In this document: positions 12,180 to 63,925 of the stretch, one piece after another | Layout: each line of letters opens with the position of its first letter | Numbering within the stretch: the first letter of the stretch is position 1 | DNA from: Lepidostoma basale | Taxonomy: Eukaryota; Arthropoda; Insecta; Trichoptera; Lepidostomatidae | Reading direction: 5' to 3' | DNA length: 64,000 nt | Assembly: GCA_022606425.2 (NCBI GenBank) | Contig: JAHDVF020000016.1 | Span: 5,424,501-5,488,500, forward strand | Position numbers and translations under genes: made by a program | Notes under the pieces: model-generated | Told to the model about the DNA's origin: nothing | Seen by the model: only the letters and a program-made list of their open reading frames with translations | Database searches by the model: none

Positions 12180-12210
12180 TTGATAATGCCTTAGACAGGC
12201 GAAACATGTC
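12180..12210 (+). ncRNA. Hammerhead-like motif (family B)
   Basis: Core TTGATAA (C3 to U, G8 to A), one extra T, stem II GCCT/AGGC with loop TAGAC, then GAAA, CATG, TC ending at 12210. Stem II has a different sequence from the GGAC/GTCC copies but is fully paired. The two core changes predict an inactive copy. Confidence 0.55.
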
Positions 12211-14359: not shown

Positions 14360-14567
14360 TATATCGAAAAAAAAAAACATTTTTATTAAGTTTTGATATG
14401 TTTTATAGTAAATGACGTATCGCTTTGCTGAGACACAACCAAATGTCTACCCTAACAAGGCATGACACATCCCGTAAAATATAATAATATTTCTACAAAA
14501 TGGACGTTTTCCTGAATGTTAAATGAGTTTATTTTAAACGCCACAATTCTCAAAATAGAATATAACT

Positions 14568-14793
14568 ATATTTTTCTTTTTCTTTTTTATATACTTTGTA
14601 TACAACACTAACTTTATTATGTTACAACATCTGTCAAAACTGATCATATTGGTAAACAATTTAATAATATTTTAAATAATCTTTATAATATCACTGATGA
14701 AGGACCGGGTTGTTCGAAACATGTCTGATATTTAATTTTAATTGTTTTAAAAGTTAGTGTTGTATACAAAGCATACAAAAAAGAAAAATATAA
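14568..14793 (+). repeat. Inverted-repeat element carrying a complete hammerhead motif
   Basis: The left arm (14568-14612, with ATACTTTGTATACAACACTA) and the right arm (14754-14793, with GTTAGTGTTGTATACAAAG) are inverted copies about 40 bp long. The ribozyme-like motif lies just before the right arm. It belongs to the family of 23368-23640, where both arms keep a ribozyme. There is no coding frame. Confidence 0.75.
14687..14733 (+). ncRNA. Hammerhead ribozyme, complete with stem I
   Basis: The 5' strand of stem I (AATATCA, 14687-14693) pairs perfectly with TGATATT after the cleavage site (14726-14732). Between them are CTGATGA (14694-14700), one extra A, stem II GGAC/GTTC (one G-U pair) with loop CGGGTT, GAAA (14716-14719), the palindrome CATG and UC (14724-14725). 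Cleavage is predicted after 14725. All core bases match the hammerhead consensus. It is the best candidate for activity in this window. Stem III is A-CATG-U, minimal in one molecule and six base pairs in a dimer. Confidence 0.85.
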
Positions 14794-15024
14794 AACATCT
14801 AAAACACATAGTATGGCAAACATAAAAGTAATAGAAAATAACTGTTTATGTTATAAAAGATTTACTAATTATAAAAAAAATATCATTCTAAATCTCGTGT
14901 TTTTCTATTCATTTATGAGTCTTGCAAATAACTCAATGGCTTACATAGTAAATAATAAATAAATAAAGTACACATATTAAAACCGAATTGATGTCGTGTT
15001 TATACGATATATAGTTTATTTAAA

Positions 15025-15575
15025 CCTATCCAAAAAAGCTAGAATGGCAGTGCAAAATGGTGTTCTTCTACCGACCCTTATGTATGGAAGCGAAGCATGA
15101 CCCTGGCAAATAAAGGATGAAAGTAGAATAAATGTAGTAGAAATGAGATCTCTTAGAGTTCTTAGACGAATGTGTGGATACTCTGTGTATGATAGAGTGT
15201 CGAATGAAAATATAAGAAGTGAATGCGGTGCGAATGATGGTGTCATGAACAAAATAATGAAAGGATCATTAAGATGGTTTGGACATATGGAAAGAATGAA
15301 TGAAGAAAGAATGGTAAAAAAATTATATGACAATGATGTAAATGGAACCAGAAATAGAGTAAGACCGAGGAAAACGTGTCACGATCAAATAAATCAAATA
15401 TTGAATGTCGGCCATGTGAGGAGTCAGAGAAATCGACGCGCGTGCATGACACGATGTATGAATGTTGAGGAACCGAGAGAAATATGTCAGGAAAGAAAAG
15501 TGTGGCAGTCCATTCTTTCTGCCTACCCCTTCGGGGAGACGGCGTGATGGTTAGTTAGTTAGTTAGTTAGTTTAT
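15025..15575 (+). mobile_element. LINE-A 3' fragment
   Basis: The frame 15143-15547 (134 codons to the natural stop) has RRMCGYSVYDRV, RWFGHMERM, RPRKTCHDQ and a YPFGETA end. An upstream part (15046-15100) keeps the MAVQNGVLLPTLMYGSEA block, but an in-frame TGA (15099-15101) replaces a tryptophan codon. The tail is four TTAG repeats. The 5' limit coincides with that of the copy at 92 (CCTATCCAAAAAAGCTA). Confidence 0.85.
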
Positions 15576-21171: not shown

Positions 21172-21560
21172 TAACTAACTAACTAACCATCACGCCGTCT
21201 CCCCGAAGGGGTAGGCAGAAAGAATGGACTGCCACACCTTTCTTTCCTGACATATTTCTCTCGCTTCCTCAACATTCATACATCGTGTCATGCACGCGCG
21301 TCGATTTCTCTGACTCCACACATGGCCGACATTCAATATTTGATTTATTTGATCGTGCCATGTTTTCCTCGGTCTTCCTCTATTTCTGGTACCATTTACG
21401 AGTACATCATTAACATATAATTTTTTTACCATTCTTTCTTCATTCATTCTTTCCATATGTCCAAACCATCTTAATGATCCTTTCATTATTTTGTTCATGA
21501 CACCATCATTCGCACCGCATTCACTTCTTATATTTTCATTCGACACTCTATCACACATAT
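21172..21560 (-). mobile_element. LINE-A 3' fragment with open frame
   Basis: The minus-strand frame 21558-21190 (122 codons) runs from CDRVSNENIRSECGAND to YPFGETA with a natural stop. It closely matches 15025-15575, with a 3-codon difference (YVNDVLVNGT). The CTAACTAACTAAC tail is at the left edge. Confidence 0.85.
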
Positions 21561-23365: not shown

Positions 23366-23439
23366 TGGTTTATTTCTATTTTTATTTGTTTATATACTTT
23401 GTATATACAACACTGATATTTAAAAAATATAATTATATA

Positions 23440-23470
23440 GACATGTTTCGGACAAACAGTCCTTCTTCAG
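23440..23470 (-). ncRNA. Hammerhead ribozyme, intact core (CATG type)
   Basis: On the minus strand: CTGAAGA (the N7 position is free in the consensus), one extra A, stem II GGAC/GTCC with loop TGTTT, GAAA, CATG, TC. All core bases match. Stem I is only partly pairable, so activity is uncertain. Confidence 0.7.
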
Positions 23471-23540
23471 TAATAACATCTGTCAGATCATGTGAACAAC
23501 AACAATTTTATAATATTTTTTTTATAAATATGTATCTTTA

Positions 23541-23571
23541 CCGAAGAAGGACTGTTTGTCCGAAACATGTC
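23541..23571 (+). ncRNA. Hammerhead-like motif, one core change
   Basis: CCGAAGA (U4 to C), extra A, GGAC/GTCC stem with TGTTT loop, GAAACATGTC. Otherwise identical to the partner in the opposite arm. Confidence 0.65.
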
Positions 23572-24064
23572 TATATAATATTATTTTTTTAATATCAGTA
23601 TTGAATATACAAAGTGTATAAAAAAATAAAAATAGAAATAAAAACCACTTAACAAAGTGAGTATTTATATCATGTTCAATAATTTATTGTACGTAATTTA
23701 GCTTTCTGGTAAATTTGCTACCAACACATTTTTATCGATATAGGAATACTCGTATATTGCAAAAAACGTAATTTATTTTTTAAATTCTTTTTCACATTTG
23801 TATTTATTTTAAAATATTATTTTTGTTAAAATTTAACAAAATCGTGCAATGAATGGTTAAAACAAGTATTATACCCGTAACAATGGATAACAAACAAACA
23901 TGCGGTGTTAAGTGTAGGCAATTTAGAGATTACGGCAATCGTGATCTCGTTAATTACCCCCCGGGAAAGGTCAGTGCCATCAACGAGCGTACATTATAGA
24001 ACAAAAAAAAATGACACAATATTTTCTGTTATATAAATTATCTTTATGCCGATTATGTATGATT

Positions 24065-32388: not shown

Positions 32389-32955
32389 ACTAGCTGACCC
32401 GGCGAACTTCGTACCACCTCAGAATCAATAAATGTTGTGTTCACTTATTAGTTGAATTAAATTCAGTTATTTATTAAGTTAAAATGAATACTCAAAATGA
32501 ATTAAGTTAAAATAAATGTGCAAAATCAAAATGAAAAGTATTTGGAATTTCATAATGACCAATTTTTATGAATTAAAACATCGTTCTTCCGATGATGAAG
32601 GTGTACGCATTCGAAACATGTCGAGAAAAATAAACTCAAAAGTGAAAAAAAAAAACAGTGTTTTATTTCATAAAAAAGTATTTGAATTACATTGATATGA
32701 ATTTAATTCACGTGGCAGCAATGGATTTGCGTTATTGAAGCGAATCGAAATGATTCGCGTAGCATTGTTGCACTACTTTCTGTTAAATCATTATATTTGC
32801 TGGATGGGATGCACTCGGGTCGATTTTTTCCGATGTTTTCATAGTTATTCTGCTATTCGGGACCGAGACAAATCCAACAAATCAAAGATCATCAAAATCG
32901 GTCTAGCTGTTCTTGAGGATGGTGGAACTAACACGACTTTGTTTTATACATAGAC
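32389..32955 (+). repeat. Dispersed insect repeat, interrupted by a hammerhead unit
   Basis: Begins ACTAGCTGACCCGGCGAAC and ends with ATCAAAATCGGTCTAGC, ACTAACACGACTTTG and a TATA-rich tail. These end blocks are common in arthropod non-autonomous repeats; I cannot name the family. A 124-nt insert is at 32550-32673. Confidence 0.6.
32550..32673 (+). mobile_element. 124-nt mobile unit with hammerhead-like motif
   Basis: The unit is flanked by AAAAGTATTTGGAATT (32534-32549) and AAAAGTATTTGAATT (32674-32688), an apparent 15-bp target duplication. The motif at 32589-32622 is CCGATGA (U4 to C), extra T, a 16-nt stem II hairpin with GAA/TTC base, GAAA, CATG, TC. After it come TCGAGAAAAATAAACTC and an A-run, shared with 54514. 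Confidence 0.7.
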
Positions 32956-63814: not shown

Positions 63815-63925
63815 TATGTTTTTTTTGGAAATCACATATTTTGCCATGCGAAAGGATTATCAAATGTTGCGTTTGATAAAACTTATATGAGGGGAAACAT
63901 GTCGTTTCCACAAAACATTTTTATT
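63815..63925 (+). repeat. Family-B repeat with hammerhead-like motif
   Basis: GGAAATCACATATTTTGCC faces GGGGAAACATGTCGTTTCC. The motif at 63873-63903 is TTGATAA, extra A, a weak stem II (CTT/AGG) with a five-base loop, GAAA, CATG, TC. Same TTGATAA core as 12180 and 28869. Confidence 0.55.

Follow-up and report, generated by a model that had tools for sequence, protein, structure and literature searches.

The question raised by this locus is whether a hammerhead-like motif, found in a 64,000-nucleotide stretch of the Lepidostoma basale genome (contig JAHDVF020000016.1; the whole stretch is referred to as the window), belongs to an element of its own and whether the RNA that carries it would be cut. 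An earlier note on this DNA had described a complete minimal hammerhead in a ~226-bp inverted-repeat element without a protein and had pointed to Penelope-like elements (PLEs) as known carriers of such motifs.

Results and Discussion

Layout of the motif

The motif lies on the plus strand at 14687–14732 and was assigned as a minimal type I hammerhead from its sequence, pattern counts and covariation between families, with a predicted cut after 14725. Stem I consists of seven perfect pairs (AATATCA, 14687–14693, with TGATATT, 14726–14732) and encloses the core segment C3 to A9 (CTGATGA, 14694–14700), an unpaired A between A9 and stem II (14701), the four pairs of stem II including one G-U (GGAC, 14702–14705, with GTTC, 14712–14715), the GAAA core segment (14716–14719), CATG (14720–14723), U16.1 (14724) and C17 (14725), which satisfies the core order CUGANGA ... 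GAAA ... UH at 14694–14725. Evidently, the conserved core bases in their right order, the perfect 7-bp stem I and the stem II with one G-U are present where the earlier note had placed them, and the cut site predicted here, after C17 at 14725, coincides with its own.

The claim of a complete minimal hammerhead stands with respect to the minimal motif and fails with respect to completeness, as a stem III of the monomer is lacking and an extra A14701 is present. In a canonical hammerhead stem II directly adjoins A9; this adjacency is absent from the window motif, in which A14701 intervenes. The base at this position is A in 54 of the 55 family copies described below, and T in 24 and A in 13 of the 37 distinct motifs taken from the first 30 listed genome places. 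It may lower the activity. Furthermore, the palindrome ACATGT (14719–14724), the would-be stem III of a dimer, has no space for a loop, so that stem III is not possible within one molecule and could form only between two copies. The dimer pairing proposed earlier for CATG is possible, whereas the one to two pairs proposed for a single molecule are not. In other PLE families ACCGGT or ACAAATTTGT is found in place of ACATGT.

Pattern counts and model searches

The pattern CTGANGAN{6,30}GAAACATGTC matched twice in the window (the 14687 motif, and 23440–23470 on the minus strand) and 0 times in each of 100 dinucleotide shuffles of it. Genome-wide, CTGATGAN{6,30}GAAACATGTC gave 706 matches (336 + 370) in 769 Mb, compared with 0 + 1 for the reversed-pattern control. 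These pattern and control counts refute the explanation that a hammerhead-like string was assembled by chance in AT-rich DNA; Rfam is silent and the fold energy is ordinary, which would fit such an assembly, but the stem II covariation and the presence of the motif in intact PLEs (see below) speak against it as well, which makes its probability negligible. The hammerhead-like motif is real.

Over the whole window Rfam gave no family at its cut-off, and at 14560–14830 no hammerhead family at E ≤ 10; the lack of a match in the Rfam hammerhead covariance scan is one of the two outcomes that the earlier note had named as counting against its claim. The match to JPX_2 at 14647–14720, whose 3' part holds CUGAUGAGG...GAAAC, was rejected as chance (20.9 bits vs a cut-off of 48). 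Our own model R1 scored the window copy with E 1.2e-13, a circular value because this copy was in the R1 alignment. Outside its alignment R1 matched three further stretches of the window with E 6.7e-9 or better: a third-family motif with a GAAGG/CCTTC type stem II at 32580–32631 (plus strand, E 2.2e-12), and two head-to-head motifs at 23431–23479 (minus) and 23532–23580 (plus, with CCGAAGA in its core), which form a second such end in the window and of which the minus-strand one also matched the pattern. A search of literature text for the motif strings returned no ribozyme or transposon paper, as judged by title and abstract.

Folding and covariation

The 61-nt fold is unremarkable (z 0.21; 115 of 200 shuffles fold as well or better), and its MFE structure pairs part of the core with CATG. 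For the window copy as a monomer the hammerhead pairing amounts to −4.8 kcal/mol vs an optimum of −7.4 kcal/mol, and for the family consensus it is itself the optimum (−7.7 kcal/mol). The double hammerhead (−13.6 for the window copy, −19.4 for the consensus) is weaker than the best alternative dimer (−26.9 and −22.7, respectively). Within the 264-nt window element the probability of stem I is 0.43–0.53 and that of stem II 0.34.

Covariation was evaluated free of any alignment for 38 distinct motifs, i.e. all 39 motif rows (37 distinct) plus the window motif. Stem II was paired in 84.9% vs 70.7 ± 2.4% after shuffling (0 of 2000 shuffles) and in at most 63.2% when slid; stem I was paired in 63.9% vs 50.5 ± 2.8% (0 of 2000 shuffles), with 62.1% when slid by +2. 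In the alignment A1, comprising the window motif and 21 of the 39 motif rows, 73.4% of the cells pair vs 59.2 ± 2.2% shuffled (64.9% for stem I in this hand-chosen alignment), and the covariation score, which the hand-picking can flatter, is 0.467 vs 0.230 ± 0.029 shuffled and at most 0.206 slid. Double-sided changes (10 vs 8.6) and further pair types (22 vs 21.7) in these 22 motifs were not above the shuffles. Based on the shuffle and slide tests, stem II is well supported by covariation between families and the support for stem I is weak.

The insertion unit

The unit that holds the motif measures about 262 bp (14568–14829) between its target-site duplications and not ~226 bp as described before. 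The left duplication, AATAGAATATAACT (14554–14567), and the right one, AATAGAAAATAACT (14830–14843), are identical at 13 of 14 positions. Between them lies the direct pseudo-LTR (pLTR) arm of a PLE (14622–14829, plus strand), recognised by the family alignment and by alignment to the pLTR/ORF start of an intact PLE at C853; it ends in an ORF-start tail, ATGGCAAACATAAAAG (14813–14828, plus strand), which corresponds to the ATGGCGAATATAGAAG that opens the 818-aa ORF at C853. The short left arm (14568–14615, minus strand) repeats the 3' part of the same element in inverted orientation, as recognised by arm complementarity: 14571–14615 and 14750–14794 are 91% complementary over 45 nt. What had been taken for a separate inverted-repeat element without protein thus appears instead to be a strongly 5'-truncated PLE insertion, and the earlier pointer to PLEs is borne out by the homology to intact PLEs, the ORF-start tail and the target-site duplication. 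Judged from these sequence relations, the window feature is very probably a PLE-derived solo end carrying a minimal type I hammerhead motif.

Among other candidate classes, a DNA transposon or MITE was rejected on account of TSD-like matches that vary in length and a 3' end that lies inside the PLE ORF, and a retrozyme on account of the lack of a tandem repeat at 14400–15000, where 0 direct repeat families were found.

As a further observation in the window, 15101–15547, 79–606 and 21190–21558 hold repeated C-terminal fragments of one protein (SLRWFGHMERM...), which we take to be non-LTR-retrotransposon-like.

The family of related ends

A DNA search with 14580–14800 reported 112 matches, the best 40 of 3375 candidates having been scored. 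Thirty-nine of those places were taken as loci, together with the surroundings of the second motif in the window; L001–L008, which repeat the window's place and L009–L015, were left out of the family counts. The family motif reads CTGAGGA-A-GGAC-CGGGTT-GTCC-GAAACATGT-C/T with the same stem I as the window copy. Within 55 copies (41 distinct) the core is intact in 45 and broken in 10, and 24 have the core together with all 11 pairs. Position 7 is G in 50, T in 3 (window copy included) and A in 2 of the 55; at position 17, 31 copies have C and 24 have T, and either base is cleavable under general hammerhead rules. With a divergence of 3.0% within the family vs 4–5.5% elsewhere, the core is barely more conserved than its surroundings.

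In several family copies two arms, each with its own motif, are inverted head-to-head; others, the window copy included, have a short inverted left arm only. The right ends mostly lie directly after ATGGCGAACATAGAAG. The left junctions of the 12 short-armed copies are all different by eye, which suggests that every insertion generates the short form afresh. Target-site duplications were assessed in the 23 arrangements with both ends recognisable (L009–L047 and the window; L048 left out): a score of at least 9 was reached by 10 of the 23 vs 13.6% of swapped pairs, and the mean score was 8.70 vs 7.05 (largest of 21 swapped sets, 7.71). No duplication above this threshold was present in 13 of the 23 arrangements, and some listed matches lie away from the ends. 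The clearest cases are L024 (14/14), L042 (13), L043 (12) and the window copy (13/14). A scan of the loci L001–L088 for the PLE C-terminus found it on the strand of the motif, and upstream of it, at L013 (which L006 repeats), L022, L038, L040 and L054, 54–78% identical to C853; the match ends ~170–180 nt before the motif, or ~340 nt before it at L040.

These data also bear on the alternative that the unit is a separate non-autonomous inverted-repeat element, akin to a MITE or a retrozyme, that carries a hammerhead, multiplies itself at 250–400 bp and has its RNA processed by this hammerhead. The many copies (112 matches reported, best 40 of 3375 candidates scored) and the sizes of most of the 23 two-ended arrangements (~240–260 or 335–395 bp) would fit such an element. 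Its left junction, however, differs among the 12 short-armed copies, other copies extend into the PLE coding region, a direct repeat family is absent at 14400–15000, and stems I and II have a probability of 0.0 in 16 of 16 head-to-head arms, so that we regard this alternative as very unlikely and retain the reading as a PLE-derived solo end.

Intact PLE relatives

A GIY-YIG search of the genome gave 62 matches, with the best 150 of 541 candidates scored. Eight of ten GIY-YIG places carry PLE-like frames; the other two, L097 and L098, look bacterial and were set aside. The latter lie on contigs C102 and C729 within compact gene strings and have frames of 623 and 621 aa, presumably UvrC-like as judged from the GIY-YIG match; both contigs are perhaps of symbiont or contaminant origin. 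The 758-aa ORF at C742 holds RVT_1 and GIY-YIG, and a search with it gave 59 matches (59 of 3702 candidates scored) with many frames of 750–870 aa at 39–42% identity. The 818-aa ORF at C853 starts with MANIEEI and has RVT_1 and GIY-YIG above the Pfam cut-offs. In a search for PLE relatives (best 7999 candidates scored, 128 passed, 120 listed) the named ones among the matches listed include records from moth, beetle, locust, ant, leafhopper, scorpion and rotifer. Against solved structures only insignificant telomerase matches (E 0.48–0.79) were obtained.

The flanks of seven PLE places (C853, C1406, C887, C956, C308, C499 and C454) were scanned for the motif. At C853 and C1406 CTGAAGA-A-GGGGCTTCTGTGTCCC-GAAACATGTC was found 3' of the ORF, and at C1406 also inverted upstream; C887 and C956 hold CTGAGGA-A-GCTCGGTTGTGAGC-GAAACCGGTC. 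The same pattern scan found no motif in the flanks of C308, C499 and C454, where TTTGAAAATGCCCTCGCAAGGCGAAACAAATTTGT, with U3, A8 and the palindrome ACAAATTTGT, was read by eye (at C454 on the other strand). R1 matched only C853 and C1406 (27.5 bits) and the L099 remnant (14.6 bits) among these PLE loci. The stem III palindrome differs by PLE family, being ACATGT, ACCGGT (L102 and L106, i.e. C887 and C956) or ACAAATTTGT (L103, L104 and L109, i.e. C308 and C499). Aligned to the C853 pLTR/ORF start, the window right end scored 45 and the family consensus 74; 500 mononucleotide shuffles averaged 18.8 (maximum 33) for the former and 19.0 (maximum 30) for the latter. The intact parent of exactly the window subfamily is not among the elements found; C853 is a relative.

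Two structural details of these elements were also recorded. At C853 (L099, bases 365–400) the inverted and direct pLTRs join inside the hammerhead, near the palindrome and the predicted cut, with an ACA overlap; this is one case, read by eye. Tandem PLE copies with a unit of ~2.95 kb were seen on each strand, at C308 2096145–2107985 and C502 3014–14849.

A U3-A8 variant of the core

In the active hammerhead, position 3 is paired with position 8. At 12180–12210 and at 63873 of the window TTGATAA (U3, A8) replaces CTGATGA; the stem I of the motif at 12180 looks weak by eye. Genome-wide, TTGATAAN{6,30}GAAACATGTC gave 18,530 matches (9224 + 9306) with 3 + 4 for the reversed control; the C3-G8 form gave 706. 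The stem II of the places listed is of two or more kinds, among them GCCTT..AGGGC and GGTTA..TAACC. In a local sample of 341,407 bases the combinations at positions 3/8 with a stem II of at least 3 bp were C/G 59, U/A 4, A/G 2, U/C 1 and G/A 1, and with a shorter stem A/G 21, C/G 15, U/A 3, C/U 2 and one each of C/A, U/U, A/U, A/C, U/G and A/A; these counts are biased, because much of the sample was fetched by C3-G8 patterns.

The sequences point to a possible natural exchange of the core pair from C3-G8 to U3-A8. The U3-A8 families may share one U3-A8 ancestor, and their copies do not count as independent events. That the genome holds a natural PLE hammerhead series, in which stem II, the dimer stem III and the core pair 3-8 change in concert, is a tentative reading of these sequences. 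In the lizard PLE, C3G/G8C partly restores cleavage (PMC11167929). Literature on hammerheads naming a C3-G8/U3-A8 pair was not found in the partial collection that was searched, which says little.

Would the RNA be cut?

The arrangement of the window copy could have arisen as follows. On a tandem transcript, the PLE reverse transcriptase would initiate within the beginning of the ORF, traverse the pseudo-LTR backwards together with a hammerhead that had not been cut, and stop early; a fold-back or template switch would then give the short left arm. The parent RNA would be cut after C17 (14725 here), between tandem units, most likely by a double hammerhead with a 6-bp stem III formed jointly by two ACATGT, or with the PLE protein assisting. 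We consider cleavage by the parent RNA, be it as a dimer or aided by protein, about as likely as not or slightly more so. The window copy is most likely inert, because a lone transcript can form stems I and II and not III.

The copies at hand are arranged head-to-head and not in tandem, and a double hammerhead in a single transcript needs a same-orientation pair. In the head-to-head copies the probability of stems I and II in the element context is 0.0 in 16 of 16 arms (10 loci), because the other arm pairs with them, and the hammerhead is predicted to be buried there; in a short local context the stem probabilities of the same arms range from near 0 to 1. Both arms of these copies run, by eye, ~70–100 nt past the cut site, and their templates were therefore uncut there. 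This agrees with the lizard PLE, whose main substrate was unprocessed RNA (PMC11167929).

The hairpin could also be a PLE RNA signal for protein binding, template choice or translation start that resembles a hammerhead and does not cleave. Such a role is consistent with the extra base (A or T) that all 37 distinct motifs have next to stem II, with the lack of an Rfam match and with the extension of the head-to-head arms past the cut site. Furthermore, the study of the lizard PLE reports that hammerhead mutants left in vitro insertion unchanged, that the RNA was uncut without protein and that no reads were bounded by the cut site (PMC11167929). A non-cleaving signal does not, however, account well for the catalytic bases all being kept in 45 of 55 copies, for position 17 being a cleavable base throughout (C in 31 copies, U in 24), for the compensating changes in stem II, for a stem III that is altered yet palindromic between families, or for the possible C3-G8 to U3-A8 exchange. 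We hold this role to be a serious candidate that is nevertheless less probable than not, and cleavage by the parent RNA is slightly favoured over it.

Comparison with known systems

As described in work that cites them, the PLE hammerheads of Cervera and de la Pena (2014) and Lunse, Weinberg and Breaker (2017) are minimal, lack helix III and may cleave as dimers, and they have a palindromic loop III and tandem motifs. The motifs described here are like these published ones in their pseudo-LTR position, in being type I without helix III, in the dimer model with a palindromic stem III and in occurring as thousands of dispersed copies in an animal genome. The additional A or U next to stem II in the motifs examined here may set them apart. 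A review calls the in vivo activity and role of PLE hammerheads a mystery (PMC7761336).

Penelope of Adineta vaga has head-to-head inverted pLTRs, a tail into the ORF and target-site duplications of 8–10 bp (PMC3846280). The elements found here share the head-to-head pLTRs, the optional 3' tail into the ORF and the solo pLTRs, whereas their TSD-like matches are often longer (9–14 bp vs 8–10 bp; PMC3846280), and the motif is present here while the word hammerhead is absent from the Adineta vaga paper (PMC3846280).

In the Poseidon PLE PAc of Anolis carolinensis, reverse transcription starts inside the ORF start, the hammerhead cut only with the PLE protein, and cleavage needs C3 and G8 (PMC11167929). 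The hammerhead lies near the ORF start in both elements; in PAc stem II marks the start of the ORF, with the cut 26 bp inside this frame (PMC11167929), whereas in the window element 88 nt separate the cut site (14725) from the ATG that follows it (14813). Amphibian type I hammerheads have a one-pair stem III and a palindromic tetraloop and are more active as dimers (PMC7229834). Animal retrozymes and newt satellite 2 likewise carry type I hammerheads, but in direct tandem repeats and with circular RNA (PMC7229834), whereas the window unit is a PLE end and not part of a tandem array.

The PLE class is already known to carry hammerhead motifs, and the window end exemplifies this class well and does not represent a new type of element. 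What looked like a ribozyme element lacking a protein is thereby recognised as the end piece of a PLE and tied to intact relatives in the same genome, which provides a large natural variant set for testing the cutting and dimer action of PLE hammerheads. Should the U3-A8 form prove to cleave, the base pair to which the general acid G8 belongs would have been exchanged in nature and amplified on a very large scale, and this would speak for PLE hammerheads being retained because they cleave as dimers.
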